7,002 bases of DNA from Syntrophales bacterium (GTDB taxonomy: Bacteria; Desulfobacterota; Syntrophia; Syntrophales; UBA2192): positions 1-7,002 of the forward strand of contig JALOPC010000084.1 of NCBI GenBank assembly GCA_025454095.1, written 5' to 3'. Shown here piece by piece: positions 555-4,770 of this stretch. Below the pieces are notes generated by a model. The model was not told the DNA's origin. It was given only the letters and a program-made list of their open reading frames with translations, and made no database searches. The translations under genes were made by a program, and so were the position numbers. Each line of letters starts with the position of its first letter. The stretch's first letter is position 1.

Positions 555-1343
555 CTACATGATTCCCTTGTACCATCCCCCGTCGATCTGGATGGCCGCA
601 CCGGTGATGTAGCCCGCCTGCTGCGACGCGAGGTAGACGACGAGGCTGGCGAACTCCTCCGGCGTGCCGATCCGCTTCATGGGGATCTCCGACGCCCATT
701 TTTCGACAACGGCCTCGGGGGTCGTCGCCTGCTTCTCGGCGAGAACCTTCGAAAGGTTGCGGACGCGGTCCGTCATCGTGTAACCCGGGCAGACGCTGTT
801 GACGGTGATGTTGAAGGATGCCAGCTCGTTCGAGAGCGACTTGGCGAAGCCGATGACGCCCGAGCGCACCGTGTTGGAAAGGATGAGGCCGTCGATGGGT
901 TGCTTGACGGCGATGGAGGTCATGTTGATGATCCGCCCCCAGCGTTTCTCCTTCATGATGGGGACGGCCTCCCGCGTCATCACGATCGTGGAGAGCAGGT
1001 TGAGGCGGCAGCCCCGCAGCCACAGCTCGTCGTCGATCTCGAGGAAGCTCATCGAAGGGGGGCCCCCGGCGTTGTTCACCAGGATGTCCACCGTCCCGAA
1101 ATGGGCCGCCGACTTGCGAACGAAGTTCTTCGCCTGCTCCAGGTCCGACACGTCGGCCGGGATGGCGAAGACCTGCCCGCCCGCTTTCCGGATGGCCTCG
1201 GCCGCCGCAGGCAGATGAGGGTCGTCGAGCGCGCAGATGGCGACCTTCGCCCCTTCGCGGGCAAAATCCAGCGCCACGGCAAGCCCCAGCCCCTGGCTGC
1301 CCCCGGCCACCAGCGCCACCTTCCCTTTCAATCCGAGATCCAT
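555..1343 (-). CDS. SDR-family oxidoreductase-like protein lacking the catalytic Tyr/Lys
   Basis: 262 residues, the usual length for a classical short-chain dehydrogenase/reductase (FabG-like). The start ATG at 1343 has an ideal AAGGAGG seven bases upstream. The Rossmann fold is clear: AGGSQGLGLA at 13-22 is the dinucleotide-binding turn, although the usual leading Thr is Ala; D64V is in place, NNAG is at 90-93, Asn115 and Ser143 match two members of the SDR catalytic tetrad, and CPGYTMTD is at 185-192. The expected YxxxK is missing: LSNTVRSGV at 155-163 puts Ser156 at the Tyr position and Arg160 at the Lys position. This matches a known subgroup of beta-ketoacyl-ACP-reductase-like SDRs with imperfect catalytic tetrads (family knowledge). 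It may bind NAD(P)(H) and an acyl substrate with altered chemistry, or act without redox catalysis. It lies 158 bases downstream of porB on the same strand, with no clear promoter of its own, so it could be co-transcribed with the por genes. Substrate unknown. Confidence 0.88.
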   Translation of the reverse strand: MDLGLKGKVALVAGGSQGLGLAVALDFAREGAKVAICALDDPHLPAAAEAIRKAGGQVFAIPADVSDLEQAKNFVRKSAAHFGTVDILVNNAGGPPSMSFLEIDDELWLRGCRLNLLSTIVMTREAVPIMKEKRWGRIINMTSIAVKQPIDGLILSNTVRSGVIGFAKSLSNELASFNITVNSVCPGYTMTDRVRNLSKVLAEKQATTPEAVVEKWASEIPMKRIGTPEEFASLVVYLASQQAGYITGAAIQIDGGWYKGIM

Positions 1344-1501: not shown

Positions 1502-2407
1502 TTACTTGGATTCCGCCGCCTTCCTCTTGTACTCCTCCCAGCGGTCGTCCACCCAGGCCTGGAGCTGGTTGAGCTGCTCGATGCTCATCTTCTTGAACCG
1601 CCCCTGCTTCTCGACGTAGTGCACCACGGGGAGCTTGTTGCCCTTCTCGGCGAGCGTGCGGCTGCGCCCCGTGAAGCGGAACTTGCCGTTTTCGACCTCG
1701 AAGAGCACGCACAGGCCCGTGTCGACAGCGAGCCGCCCGATGCGGATCGTGTCCTTCGTGGGGTACTGCCACCCCGGCGGGCAGGGCGTGTGGATGTGGA
1801 TGAACCGCGTGCCCTTGATGCGCTTGGCCCGGACGAACTTGTCGTAGAGGTCGATGGGGTAGGCCGGCGTCGTCGTGGCGATGTAGGGGATCTGGTGGGC
1901 TTCCATGATCTTCAGGAAGTCCTTCTTGTGCTGCTGCTTCGTAAGAACGGGGGTCGTCGTCGTGAGGGCCCCCATGGGGGTCGCGCTGGAGCGCTGGGTG
2001 CCCGTGTTCATGTAGCCCTCGTTGTCGTAGGCCACGTAGATGAAATCCGTCCCCCGCTCGGCGGCGCCCGAGAGGGCCTGGATGCCCATGTCGAAGGTGC
2101 CGCCGTCGCCGGCGAAGGCCACGACGGTCGTCTCCGTCCGGTTCAGGGCGGCAAGCCCCGCCGCGATGCCCGAGGCCGAGGCGGCCGTGCTCGCAAAGGT
2201 ATTGTTCACGCTGGGGACGAGGACCGGCGTCAGGGGGTAGAGCCCGTGGAGCACGCACAGGCAGCATGCGGGAAGCGTCACGATCGTGTCTTCCCGGAGC
2301 GCCTTCAGGGCGAACCGGTAGGCGATGGAGAGCCCGCAGCCCTGGCAGGCCCTCGTGCCGGGCAGGACGTATTCTTTCTCGTGGATCTTGAAGAGATTCT
2401 GCGGCAT
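1502..2407 (-). CDS. porB: 2-oxoacid:ferredoxin oxidoreductase, beta (TPP-binding) subunit
   Basis: Catalytic thiamine-diphosphate subunit of a four-subunit 2-oxoacid:ferredoxin oxidoreductase (2-oxoacid + CoA + oxidised Fd to acyl-CoA + CO2 + reduced Fd, reversible). With the start at 2407 it is 301 residues. CQGCG at 21-25, Cys49 (25 residues after Cys24, as in pyruvate:ferredoxin oxidoreductase) and Cys209 in HTPCPPGW fit the four ligands of the proximal [4Fe-4S] cluster. GDGG at 100-103 with the following YDNEGYMNTGTQRSSATP (127-144) is the TPP/Mg signature of PorB-type subunits. A GTG at 2425 would add six residues but lies inside porA. The ATG at 2407 comes 4 bases after the porA stop with GGAG seven bases upstream, so I prefer it. 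The motif set does not separate pyruvate from branched-chain 2-oxoacids; the leucine-type leader upstream of the operon hints at the latter or at pyruvate made for branched-chain amino acids. Confidence 0.95.
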   Translation of the reverse strand: MPQNLFKIHEKEYVLPGTRACQGCGLSIAYRFALKALREDTIVTLPACCLCVLHGLYPLTPVLVPSVNNTFASTAASASGIAAGLAALNRTETTVVAFAGDGGTFDMGIQALSGAAERGTDFIYVAYDNEGYMNTGTQRSSATPMGALTTTTPVLTKQQHKKDFLKIMEAHQIPYIATTTPAYPIDLYDKFVRAKRIKGTRFIHIHTPCPPGWQYPTKDTIRIGRLAVDTGLCVLFEVENGKFRFTGRSRTLAEKGNKLPVVHYVEKQGRFKKMSIEQLNQLQAWVDDRWEEYKRKAAESK

Positions 2408-2411
2408 GGCG

Positions 2412-3620
2412 CTACTCCGTGGCACAGTTCAGCCAGGTGGTTTTCAGATCCTTCTCGCCCGCCTGGATCCGGGCAAGTGACGACTTGACGGCCTCGACGA
2501 GTTCCCTCGCCTTCACATCGCGGCCCCCGAGTCCCGCCACGTAATCGTGAATGGTCGCCTGGATCCCGCTGCCGTAGAAAGCGGCCTTGAGATCGGAGCA
2601 CAATCCCCCCTCGTAGCCGTAGCTGATGCTCTTTTCGAAGAGGATGATGGCCTTCGCCCCCCGGTAGGCCTCGACGGCCTCCTTGACCGGGAAGGGCCGG
2701 TAGACGCGGATCCCCACGACCCCGGCCTTGATGCCCTCTTCGCGCAGGGCATCGGCGGCCACCGTCGCCTCGGCGGCGAGCGACCCCATGCTCGTCAGGA
2801 TCACGTCGGCGTCCTCCGTCCGGTGCGTCCAGAGCATCCCGCCGTGGTCGCGTCCGAAGGCCTCCGCAAAACTCCGGTTCACCTCGCGGATCGCCTCCAT
2901 GGTCCGGTCGAGGGCGTTCTGCAGCTTCCAGCGCATCTCCATGTAGCCGTCGCAGAGCACCCCCTCGGCGTCGGGGCGCCGGTTGGGCAGGAGAACCGAG
3001 TTGATGGTCATCGGGTTTTCGGCATCGAGAATCGTGTGAGGCTTGTAGGGGGGCAGGAACTTCCGGACCGCCGCCGGCGTCGGGCTGATGACGGGCATCA
3101 TCGTGTGGGAAAGCACGAAGCCGTCGAAGCAGACCATGACGGGCACGTAGACCGTCTCGGCGATCCTGTAGGCCTGGATCACCGTGTCGAGGATCTCCTG
3201 GTTGTCGCGGCAGTAGATCTGGATCCATCCCGTGTCGCGCTGGGCCAGCGAGTCCTGCTGGTCGTTGAAGATCGACCAGGGTGCGCCCACGCCGCGGTTG
3301 ACGCAGCACATGACGATGGGAAGCCTCGACCCCGCCGCCCAGTGCAGCTGCTCGTGCATGTACAGCAGGCCGTTCGAGCTGGTCGCCGTGAAGACCCGGG
3401 CCCCCACGGTGGAGGCCCCGATGCAGACCGTCATGGCCGAGTGCTCGCCTTCCACCCGGACGTACTCGGCGCGCAGCTGGCCGCTTTCCACGTACAGGGA
3501 AAGCATCTCGGCAAGCTGCGACTGGGGGGTGATCGGGTAGGCGGCGACGACCTGGACGTCGCAGAGCCGTGCCGCCAGCGCCGCCGCCTGATTTCCGGTG
3601 ATGATGCGCGCGTCAGTCAT
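2412..3620 (-). CDS. porA: 2-oxoacid:ferredoxin oxidoreductase, alpha subunit
   Basis: 402 residues, normal for a PorA/VorA alpha subunit. It pairs with PorB to form the active site at their interface. Visible landmarks are AAYPITPQSQLAE at 26-38, VEGEHSAM at 56-63 (Glu expected to activate TPP), the SSNGL segment at 81-85, RDTGWIQIY at 128-136, and a C-terminal transketolase-like domain from about 270 (ADVILTSMGS) to FEKSISYGYEGG at 328-339. These correspond to the PFOR N-terminal and PFOR II domains. The ATG at 3620 overlaps the end of porD by 8 bases and has GGAGG nine bases upstream, indicating translational coupling. The stop is 4 bases before porB. No Fe-S motif is present, as expected for this subunit. 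The 2-oxoacid it prefers cannot be read off the sequence; candidates are pyruvate, branched-chain 2-oxoacids and aryl-glyoxylates. Confidence 0.96.
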   Translation of the reverse strand: MTDARIITGNQAAALAARLCDVQVVAAYPITPQSQLAEMLSLYVESGQLRAEYVRVEGEHSAMTVCIGASTVGARVFTATSSNGLLYMHEQLHWAAGSRLPIVMCCVNRGVGAPWSIFNDQQDSLAQRDTGWIQIYCRDNQEILDTVIQAYRIAETVYVPVMVCFDGFVLSHTMMPVISPTPAAVRKFLPPYKPHTILDAENPMTINSVLLPNRRPDAEGVLCDGYMEMRWKLQNALDRTMEAIREVNRSFAEAFGRDHGGMLWTHRTEDADVILTSMGSLAAEATVAADALREEGIKAGVVGIRVYRPFPVKEAVEAYRGAKAIILFEKSISYGYEGGLCSDLKAAFYGSGIQATIHDYVAGLGGRDVKARELVEAVKSSLARIQAGEKDLKTTWLNCATE

Positions 3621-3906
3621 TGCACTGGTCCTCCCTCACCATGCTGATGGCCCGGGACGGGCACTCCTCGGCGCAGATCCCGCAGCCCTTGCAGTACTCG
3701 AGGTCGATCTGGACGGGGATCCCCGCTTTGACCACCGCCTCGGGACAGTAGAGCCAGCACAGGTAACAGGCGGCCTTCTTCTTGACGAAGGGCGTGCACT
3801 TGCTGTGATCGATGACGGGCCTCAGGTCGCGCCAGTCGCCCGTCCTGCCCGCCTCGCCGATGGTGGGCTTGCACATCGCCGATATGTTCTCGTCTCGTTT
3901 CTTCAT
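3613..3906 (-). CDS. porD: 2-oxoacid:ferredoxin oxidoreductase, delta (2x[4Fe-4S] ferredoxin) subunit, with widened first cluster motif
   Basis: 97-residue ferredoxin-like subunit that carries electrons from the catalytic subunits to external ferredoxin. The second cluster motif is canonical: C72-KG-C75-GI-C78-AEE-C82-P. The first is not: C37 is followed by nine residues (TPFVKKKAA) before C47-YL-C50-WLY-C54-P, where the usual PorD reads CxxCxxCxxxCP. All eight cysteines are still present, so two clusters are likely, with a 7-residue basic loop inserted beside one of them. The N-terminal 30 residues (KPTIGEAGRTGDWRDLRPVID) are the usual PorD lead-in. The ATG at 3906 has a GAGG-type ribosome binding site about nine bases upstream. 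The gap to porG is 38 bases, and the 3' end overlaps porA by 8 bases. Confidence 0.95.
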   Translation of the reverse strand: MKKRDENISAMCKPTIGEAGRTGDWRDLRPVIDHSKCTPFVKKKAACYLCWLYCPEAVVKAGIPVQIDLEYCKGCGICAEECPSRAISMVREDQCND

Positions 3907-3944: not shown

Positions 3945-4514
3945 TTACCCTTGAACCTTCTGCACGACCGTTCCCTCGTAGGCCGCCCGCACCGTCTCGA
4001 AATTCTGCGAGGCCGCCGCCGCGGGGAGCTTGCTGCGAAGGGCTTTCTCGATGTTCTCCAGGGAGACGATCCCCGTGGCCTTCGCGAAGGCGCCCAGGAG
4101 CGGCGTGTTGATCAGCGGGGCTCCCTCCTTCATCAGGCGCAGCTTCAGGGCCACCCCGGTGGCATCGACCGTGGCCACGTTGAAATCCCCGTTGATGCCC
4201 GCGTCTTCCGGCTTGCAGGCGGTGTTGATGATGATCGTCCCGCCCTTGCGGACCCGGCCTTTCACGTCGACGACACCCAGGAGCGTGTTGTCCAGCACAA
4301 TGGCGATGTCGGCCATCTCGACCTGGGAAAACATCCGGATGGGCTCCTCCGAGATCCGCGTCGAGGCCGTGACCGGCGCGCCGCGGCGCTCGGGGCCGAA
4401 CGTCGGCGCCGACGTGACGCCCTTGAAGCCTTCCAGGTATGCCGACTCCGCCAGGATCTGCGCGGCGACGACGGCCCCCTGGCCTCCCCGACCGAACCAG
4501 ATGATCTCTTTCAT
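3945..4514 (-). CDS. porG: 2-oxoacid:ferredoxin oxidoreductase, gamma subunit
   Basis: 189 residues from the ATG at 4514, typical of the gamma subunit (POR/KOR gamma domain), which is structural and contributes to CoA binding in this enzyme class. It opens with KEIIWFGRGGQGAVVAAQIL, the family hallmark GRGGQG at 8-13, followed by FGPERRGAPVTAS near 39-51 and NTPLLGAFAK in the second half. In-frame ATGs at 4574 and 4559 would extend it, but they lie inside the leader terminator hairpin and the added residues are not family-like; the ATG at 4514 has AAGGAG about 12 bases upstream. It is the first structural gene of porGDAB, and transcription must pass the leader terminator at 4581-4547 to reach it. 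Confidence 0.95.
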   Translation of the reverse strand: MKEIIWFGRGGQGAVVAAQILAESAYLEGFKGVTSAPTFGPERRGAPVTASTRISEEPIRMFSQVEMADIAIVLDNTLLGVVDVKGRVRKGGTIIINTACKPEDAGINGDFNVATVDATGVALKLRLMKEGAPLINTPLLGAFAKATGIVSLENIEKALRSKLPAAAASQNFETVRAAYEGTVVQKVQG

Positions 4515-4546: not shown

Positions 4547-4581
4547 AAAAAAAGGCCATGAGCGTTTTGCCCATGGCCTTT
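4547..4581 (-). terminator. Leader intrinsic terminator (attenuator) in front of porG
   Basis: On the minus strand, arm AAAGGCCATGGGC (4581-4569), loop AAAAC, arm GCTCATGGCCTTT (4563-4551): 13 base pairs with one G-U, ending in seven T residues (4553-4547). It is a textbook intrinsic terminator, but it sits 33 bases before the porG start and 20 bases after the stop of the leader peptide, not at the end of a gene. Its 5' arm shares bases 4581-4576 with the competing hairpin at 4616-4576, so the two structures exclude each other. Confidence 0.88.
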
Positions 4582-4616
4582 AGAATTTCGTTCTCGATTC
4601 CCTAAATTCTAAAAAC
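4576..4616 (-). promoter_or_regulatory. Predicted antiterminator hairpin of the por leader
   Basis: On the minus strand TTTAGAATTT (4613-4604) is perfectly complementary to AAATTCTAAA (4588-4579). Two U-G pairs and one G-C pair extend the stem to 13 pairs (4616-4604 with 4588-4576), loop 15 bases. The 3' arm consumes six bases of the terminator 5' arm (AAAGGC). The 5' arm encodes the last residues of the leader peptide (F34-R35-I36 and the first base of the stop), so a ribosome at the stop codon would cover it. A ribosome stalled in the Leu run (4652-4638) would leave it free. Confidence 0.75.
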
Positions 4617-4712
4617 GACGGGCGATCGGGTTGTCCGCAGGAGCAGGAGCAGAGCGAGGCACAATAGCCCGTTGAGGCTCAGCAATTCTCTTCTTGCACC
4701 GATCGACGTCAT
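4602..4712 (-). CDS. Leucine-rich leader peptide of the por operon (attenuation control)
   Basis: A 36-codon ORF, ATG at 4712 to TAG at 4604-4602, read on the minus strand. It starts MTSIGARRE, continues LLSLNGLLCLA, then LLLLL, and ends RTTRSPVVFRI. Eleven of 36 codons are Leu (residues 10, 11, 13, 16, 17, 19 and 21-25), including five in a row as CTG CTC CTG CTC CTG; two adjacent Val codons follow. A GAGGG element lies 11 bases before the ATG, and a sigma70-like promoter about 25 bases further up. Composition and position resemble the leuL/ilv leader peptides of enterobacteria, whose role is to let ribosome position report tRNA charging; the peptide itself probably has no function. It could be taken for a small hydrophobic membrane peptide, but the overlapping hairpins argue for a leader. 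The CGATCGG at 4705-4699 is complementary to 4629-4623 and could form an early pause hairpin. Confidence 0.75.
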   Translation of the reverse strand: MTSIGARRELLSLNGLLCLALLLLLRTTRSPVVFRI

Positions 4713-4741
4713 TTCCAACGATTCCCTCACAAAGTAAACCC

Positions 4742-4770
4742 TAGATATAGGAAAGGATCCGCCTTGTCAA
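4742..4770 (-). promoter_or_regulatory. Sigma70-type promoter of the por operon
   Basis: Minus strand TTGACA (4770-4765), a perfect -35. A weaker -10 follows: TATCTA (4747-4742) after 17 bases, or TATATC (4749-4744) after 15. The start of transcription would be near 4735, placing about 23 bases of 5' leader before the leader-peptide ATG and about 220 bases before porG. It lies about 84 bases beyond the end of waaA, so porGDAB need not depend on waaA transcription. Confidence 0.65.

Follow-up and report, generated by a model that had tools for sequence, protein, structure and literature searches.

A Leu-rich leader resembling those of leuA precedes a ferredoxin-dependent oxidoreductase operon in the Syntrophales and is a likely leucine attenuator

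The porGDAB operon of a Syntrophales bacterium, which encodes a 2-oxoacid:ferredoxin oxidoreductase, is preceded by a leader that joins a conserved Leu-rich peptide to mutually exclusive RNA helices, much as leuA leaders do, and that is likely to be a ribosome-mediated leucine attenuator of the operon. The operon lies in the window, by which we mean the whole stretch of 7,002 nucleotides analysed (contig JALOPC010000084.1 of assembly GCA_025454095.1); the source genome is a draft, 86% complete. Judged from sequence, the attenuator itself is strongly supported; its response to leucine, the substrate of the enzyme and the direction of the reaction are what we infer. A wider reading, offered tentatively and at somewhat below an even chance, is that throughout the order PorGDAB acts as an isovaleryl-CoA carboxylase (4-methyl-2-oxopentanoate synthase) which fixes CO2 in forming leucine and is controlled by a leuA-like attenuator, that it has replaced LeuA repeatedly, and that its leader is a three-state switch gated at the start codon by stalled and queued ribosomes.

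Direct reading of the minus strand from 4770 to 4515 gives a promoter box, a Leu-rich ORF and a terminator, followed by porG (Table 1), whose ATG at 4514 is downstream of the U-tract. These elements had been put forward in a preliminary description of the same DNA and they hold up: the TTGACA box is present, direct reading confirms the 36-codon ORF with its 11 Leu codons, five of them consecutive (codons 21–25), and the 13-pair intrinsic terminator before porG has a hairpin energy of -22.0 kcal/mol, with a z of -6.05 against shuffled sequences. Terminator-like sites are not in surplus across the window as a whole (four found, 4.4 expected). The -10 box is poor, matching consensus at 3/6 positions, and a simple promoter scan of the window did not have this TTGACA/TATCTA pair among its listed sites. 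A TTGACA-like box (at least 5/6) and a -10-like box (at least 3/6) 16–18 nt apart nevertheless stand upstream of 47 of 50 related leader ORFs, compared with 12 of 117 control stretches taken farther upstream.

Table 1. Features of the leader and operon, numbered from the first letter of the window
Feature	Position	Strand	Basis or remark
Likely sigma-70-type promoter	4742..4770	-	TTGACA 4770-4765, 17 nt, TATCTA 4747-4742; read directly; predicted
Region 1, leader ORF start-codon region	4696..4718	-	pairs with arm 2 (helix 1:2)
Leader ORF	4602..4712	-	ATG start, 36 codons, 11 Leu; peptide MTSIGARRELLSLNGLLCLALLLLLRTTRSPVVFRI
Likely control codons Leu16-Leu25 (LLCLALLLLL)	4638..4667	-	alignment columns 90-100% Leu, mixed Leu codons
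Arm 2, antiterminator 5' arm	4604..4623	-	GCCCGUCGUUUUUAGAAUUU; overlaps last leader codons to first stop-codon base
Arm 3, antiterminator 3' arm	4569..4588	-	AAAUUCUAAAGGCCAUGGGC; contains entire terminator 5' arm
Intrinsic terminator	4547..4581	-	4581-4569 with 4563-4551, U-tract to 4547; 98.4% of cells paired in 51 sequences
porG, gamma subunit of 2-oxoacid:ferredoxin oxidoreductase	3945..4514	-	TIGR02175 181.2 bits, cut-off 81.1
porD, ferredoxin-like delta subunit	3613..3906	-	TIGR02179 88.4 bits, cut-off 60.05
porA, alpha subunit	2412..3620	-	PF01855, PF17147; under pyruvate and ketoisovalerate equivalog cut-offs
porB, beta subunit (TPP)	1502..2425	-	PF02775; NF008818 371.2/405, NF008819 341.7/405 bits
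Short-chain dehydrogenase (SDR)	555..1343	-	PF13561; downstream of por genes

The alternative helices are more extensive than had been thought. The antiterminator was correctly placed over the last codons of the ORF, but the helix between arms 2 and 3 has 19 pairs and one C.C mismatch rather than 13 pairs. The two hairpins are indeed mutually exclusive; because of the longer 2:3 helix, however, they have in common the whole terminator 5' arm, 4581-4569, and not merely 4581-4576. A third helix, absent from the preliminary description, pairs region 1 with arm 2 (duplex -25.2 kcal/mol) and is part of the minimum free energy fold. The Leu run extends to 4638, arm 2 starts at 4623 and the stop codon occupies 4604-4602; with this spacing arm 2 would stay free while a ribosome is stalled on the Leu run, and would be covered once the ribosome is at the stop codon.

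If the leader works as proposed, ample charged Leu-tRNA would let the ribosome reach the stop codon and cover arm 2, the terminator (3:4) would form and transcription would end. When charged Leu-tRNA is short the ribosome would stall in the Leu run, at least 14 nt before arm 2, and 2:3 would form before arm 4 is made, so that porGDAB would be transcribed. With no translation, 1:2 would form once arm 2 emerges, hiding the start codon and leaving the terminator free. The order of events would be kinetic, 1:2 arising ahead of arm 3 and 2:3 ahead of arm 4, and if a second ribosome were to queue on the start codon, 1:2 would be lost and 2:3 favoured.

The scheme was examined by folding with assumed ribosome footprints in all states. 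When the transcript ends before arm 3, the probability of 1:2 is 0.62 in the absence of a ribosome and likewise with one ribosome stalled in the Leu run. It is 0.05 when a ribosome sits at the stop codon, and 0.00 when the stalled ribosome is joined by another on the start codon. With a single stalled ribosome region 1 thus stays accessible, and 1:2 remains a competitor as long as the start codon is not occupied by a second. When the transcript ends before arm 4, 2:3 has a probability of 0.92–0.93 with or without a stalled ribosome, that of 1:2 is 0.00, and 2:3 prevails in all ribosome states except those at the stop codon. A two-state folding check of the whole leader had been suggested. When arm 2 is hidden by a ribosome at the stop codon the terminator is favoured (P(3:4) 0.97), but it is favoured at equilibrium in every ribosome state tried (P 0.89–0.97), and thermodynamic folding gave no separation of stalled from unstalled states. 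Since the terminator wins at equilibrium in all states, control must be kinetic, and the model does not reproduce the decision.

The leader recurs upstream of porG. Among 72 distinct porG-upstream sequences, 59 belong to loci with PorG at least 50% identical, and in 55 of those the upstream DNA amounts to 200 nt or more. The leader is present in 51 of the 55 and is therefore not a chance arrangement. The count leaves aside 13 loci with PorG below 50% identity and four with less than 200 nt upstream (L020, L028, L032, L057); loci with no PorG match, or with a match starting beyond the first five residues, never entered the set (L022, L024, L049, L050, L086, L088, L100-L110, L112, L113). Relatives found by PorA are mostly labelled Syntrophaceae, Syntrophales, Syntrophus, Smithella or Deltaproteobacteria, with a few other labels, and membership of the order was taken from those labels together with kinship labels. 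An alignment of relatives had been proposed as a check on the Leu-rich ORF, and the ORF came through it, being readable in 50 of the 51 leaders. The absence of such an ORF from relatives with the same operon had been named as evidence against attenuation; five of the 55 loci are without it and three more leaders are Leu-poor (2/25 residues in L075, 3/24 in L078 and 3/40 in L066). No leader was found upstream of porG in L060, L080 and L084. The por operon of L067 has lost the leader ORF but still shows a TTGACA box and what is left of the terminator (3450-3519, 18.3 bits), and L090 has a decayed copy with no readable ORF, left out of the 50-row tests below.

Leucine makes up 25.4% of the residues of the 50 leader peptides as against 8.4% in neighbouring proteins. 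Valine, isoleucine, alanine and methionine are not raised, and for that reason the Leu run is not put down to general hydrophobicity of a signal-peptide-like kind; phenylalanine is level with neighbouring proteins, and arginine is also raised (12.2 versus 6.9%). Four core columns of the peptide alignment are 94, 90, 94 and 100% Leu, each drawing on three to six different Leu codons, and CTT and TTG are raised over background among the Leu codons of the leaders. The L-A-L core is retained even in the three Leu-poor leaders, as might be expected of a nascent-chain arrest peptide whose signal is not charged tRNA-Leu. Such a peptide seems very improbable here: the residues flanking the Leu positions vary, the C-terminal part switches reading frame between species, and related leaders stand upstream of leuA.

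The frame switch falls on arm 2. The same RNA, CCCGTCGTTTTTAGG, is read as ..PVVFR.. (..PSPVVFRK and stop) in many species and as ..ARRF and stop (..SIARRF and stop) in others; divergent species carry a different arm 2 (GGCCTGTCATCTCTG, GGCCTCGTCGTC), accompanied by changes in its partners. By this comparison arm 2 is conserved as RNA across two frames, and the Leu codons are conserved as codons. In 23 dereplicated leaders, cognate arms pair better than arms swapped between species, both for helix 1:2 (-25.13 versus -19.24, sd 0.90) and for helix 2:3 (-24.06 versus -20.42, sd 0.66), and in neither case did any of 20000 permutations, which ignore phylogeny, reach the cognate value; cognate arms also beat between-species swaps when all 50 leaders are used. 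The covariation check that had been recommended came out in favour of the terminator and partly so for the antiterminator. Six terminator pairs show two-sided change, which none of 500 shuffles reached. For helix 2:3, the 23 cells with two-sided change exceed the 8.7 of the shuffles (0/500 reach), but the number of pairs with such change, seven, does not (103/500 reach).

The terminator is the best conserved part of the leader, and this alone would suit a plain terminator or a switch worked by a bound ligand or protein, with the ORF incidental. Such a device is hardly credible given the conservation of the ORF and its Leu columns and the failure to match any Rfam family: with the 4227 models of Rfam 15, nothing in the window reached a gathering score in a search up to E 1, nor did anything in nine related loci. 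The best window match (25.4 bits, gathering 100) was taken as chance, as was a DapZ match over the leader (24.8 bits, gathering 56).

At E 0.01 the model R1, trained on por leaders alone, has matches in 137 of the 149 genomes searched within the order; its single match in the source genome is the por leader, and nine distant por loci (L089, L091, L093-L099) gave none. Forty matches were fetched, with leuA as the next gene in 28, porG in nine and no downstream gene identified in three near contig ends (L145, L146, L148); as they were hand-chosen, mostly away from known por loci, 28 against nine is not a frequency. Behind leuA, leuC follows in 26 of the 28 loci and leuD in 24. Among the leuA leaders the highest score is 91.8 bits (L164), and the LeuA of L159 passes the 2-isopropylmalate synthase cut-offs. 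In 80 genomes 48 leuA genes exceed the family cut-off, and a count by eye among the matches listed gives at least 38 of them an R1 match just upstream. The leuA leaders share with the por leaders a CGCCCGTCGTTTTTAGG-type arm, a GGCCATGGG-type terminator and the Leu core, in addition to their similarity to R1. They differ in the operon that they precede, in that many of their peptides end RPSFLG.., and in arm 3, which often starts ACCTAAAGG in leuA leaders and TCCTAAAGG in por leaders. These relatives, read from sequence, are the strongest evidence that leucine would be the signal. They were overlooked in the preliminary description, along with the start-codon helix 1:2 and the possibility of a biosynthetic enzyme, and together with the Leu columns and the conserved helices they support its central claim of a leucine-type, ribosome-mediated attenuator of the por operon.

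Two of the contig-end matches, L145 and L146, are por-type leaders in a genome of the same genus (G002), each stopping 6 nt before the end of its contig; no por ortholog was detected in G002, and the ends are probably assembly breaks.

Other leaders of this general kind appear among 20 weaker R1 matches that were read for the gene downstream, one gene per type being checked by family model and the others by similar protein starts. The next gene is leuA after L185, L186, L187 and L189, and porG after L188 and L191. Lysine codons and terminators mark the leaders before dapA (L190, L192, L193, L194, L196 and L204; L192 ends ..GKKQGVKQMGLPIVLRTCMR and stop), which are possible lysine attenuators. 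Leaders rich in Phe, Tyr and Trp codons precede DAHP synthase (L195, with FYGYWFYTYF, and L199, L201, L203) and are possible aromatic attenuators. Trp codons occur before a TrpB-like gene (L197, LFCWWRAS; L198, IWWWQAH) and a Val-rich leader, VVAVLFVAVLVVVL, before the large subunit of acetolactate synthase (L202), whereas L200 is probably a chance match. Where leaders are translated, the codons of the Trp, Phe/Tyr/Trp, Val and Lys types fit the product of the operon. Outside the order, a 297-genome sample of the phylum gives another 47 genomes that match R1 at E 1e-4 (best 54.5 bits), and ten such loci were read: three precede LeuA-like genes, two dapA-like genes (L236, L239, with leaders of the dapA type), three aromatic-pathway genes and two something else. 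DAHP synthase follows L240 and L242 (NYFGFWYFY), and ADH synthase follows L241; all three leaders are rich in Phe, Tyr and Trp codons and are further possible aromatic attenuators. A Leu-rich leader, LLSLLLGLVLKG, precedes a nitronate-monooxygenase/FabK-like gene in L243, and a protein with a start similar to that of this gene (MKTRITELFGIKYPILLSGMSW) is near por in six of 50 loci. The collection suggests that ribosome-mediated attenuation governs a large part of amino-acid synthesis in the order (that of Leu, and perhaps of Val, Trp, aromatic amino acids and Lys).

What the por enzyme does is less certain. Its gamma and delta subunits score over the cut-offs of the pyruvate/2-ketoisovalerate family models (TIGR02175, TIGR02179). 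Its alpha and beta subunits fall below those of the pyruvate synthase equivalogs (PorA 433.1/550, PorB 341.7/405 bits) and of the 2-ketoisovalerate oxidoreductase models (alpha equivalog 373.9/646, beta subfamily 371.2/405 bits). Gene neighbours of 50 por loci give no hint of the substrate: with a crude ORF caller and names assigned partly by reading, a waaA-like gene is present in at least 40 of them, an epimerase-like gene in at least 18 and an SDR similar to that of the window in at least 13. In the window a strong 16-pair hairpin (478-516) separates the SDR gene from a TPR gene that converges on it and is perhaps a two-way terminator.

The attenuator could be real and the enzyme nonetheless a pyruvate synthase (acetyl-CoA + CO2 -> pyruvate), with leucine shortage as a signal of scarce carbon skeletons. 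We regard this as unlikely, though deserving of some weight. PorA scores highest with the archaeal pyruvate synthase model, and among solved structures the pyruvate:ferredoxin oxidoreductase 9bt4 comes closest, but the profile score of 433.1 bits is under the cut-off of 550. Moreover, the same genome has another por operon whose PorB exceeds the pyruvate-synthase cut-off (427.8 of 405), as that of the window does not, and the window enzyme is therefore probably not the housekeeping pyruvate synthase. A third por operon in this genome has a PorB over the ketoisovalerate-type beta cut-off (417.3 of 405); by that model it is the better VOR candidate, and so sequence models alone do not single out the window enzyme.

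The distribution of leuA also weighs against a pyruvate synthase. LeuA, called at about 390 bits or more with TIGR00973 and with partial genes included, is present in 50 of 80 genomes, the source genome being among the 80; the other 30, including G004 and G006 of the same genus, listed as 100% complete, have at most a more distant homologue. The por operon (at least 60% identity, so that four genomes with a 52–55% identical PorA count as without it) is over-represented where leuA is missing, in 25 of 30 genomes compared with 25 of 50 that have leuA (Fisher p 0.004, ignoring phylogeny). In the 59 genomes of good quality the figures are 17 of 20 and 19 of 39 (p 0.010, likewise). Five of the 80 lack both. 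The combination of por with no detected leuA is spread over 11 families, seven of them among the good-quality genomes, and ilvC was detected in 12 of the 17 good-quality genomes of this kind and not in the other five; leuA, por and ilvC calls were all read by eye. A Leu-specific leader in genomes without leuA would be hard to explain if the enzyme made pyruvate. LeuC was of no use as a second marker. The TIGR00170 model found it in none of the 80 genomes, being of the wrong subfamily (LeuC here matches TIGR02083), and a search with a LeuC protein gave homologues in 72, several of which adjoin the LeuA-like gene that is more distant (about 250 bits) and is probably a citramalate synthase; as LeuC cannot discriminate the pathway, LeuA alone was used.

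A leuA-like leader with a Leu-rich ORF and exclusive hairpins predicts that the por enzyme is switched on at leucine shortage, which would make it a likely second route to leucine. It may be a branched-chain 2-oxoacid:ferredoxin oxidoreductase run reductively, as an alternative to LeuA, converting isovaleryl-CoA and CO2 to 4-methyl-2-oxopentanoate and thence to leucine; leader and gene content would best be brought together by a branched-chain activity that forms leucine. Archaeal VOR enzymes are catabolic, and by that precedent the enzyme might instead degrade leucine (4-methyl-2-oxopentanoate -> isovaleryl-CoA), the leader having some other purpose. We think this most unlikely, for an operon turned on when leucine is scarce, as the proposed logic has it, would have the wrong sign for catabolism, and closely related leaders precede genes of leucine synthesis.

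A leader peptide names the amino acid served by its operon. If our reading of PorGDAB as leucine-forming is true, the leader assigns to leucine a ferredoxin oxidoreductase that is widespread in syntrophic anaerobes and so far unassigned, and predicts which uncultured members could use the isovalerate of their partners to make it. Rumen anaerobes carry out a reductive carboxylation of isovalerate to leucine, the same reaction as that proposed, from sequence, for PorGDAB. To our knowledge no genetic control of the rumen route has been described, and a search of the full-text literature, which covers few subscription journals, found no paper on this carboxylation. The same literature, with the same coverage, yielded no description of leucine-type control of a ferredoxin oxidoreductase, so that the earlier statement to this effect for por/vor operons stands, nor any paper on leucine attenuators in this group.

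Leucine attenuators as such are already known; by the searches above, the por-leader family is new to Rfam, adding a likely leucine attenuator family without an entry there, and has an unusual predicted start-codon helix. The leuL attenuator of the enterobacterial leuABCD operon has a run of Leu codons, mutually exclusive hairpins and a protector helix made by the control-codon region. The por leader likewise has a short ORF with a Leu-codon run, an exclusive antiterminator and terminator, and control codons placed before the antiterminator arm. It differs from leuL in matching no Rfam family, in its mixed Leu codons with CTT and TTG raised, and in the origin of the protector helix, which comes from the start-codon region here but from the control-codon region in enterobacteria. 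A passage of PMC1183508 mentions the enterobacterial leu leader. The operon itself, encoding a ferredoxin-dependent oxidoreductase, is unlike leuABCD. It has the gamma, delta, alpha and beta subunits and the domains of the four-subunit POR/VOR enzymes (TIGR02175, TIGR02179; 9bt4), from which it is set apart by falling under every substrate-specific cut-off and by the leucine-type leader upstream.
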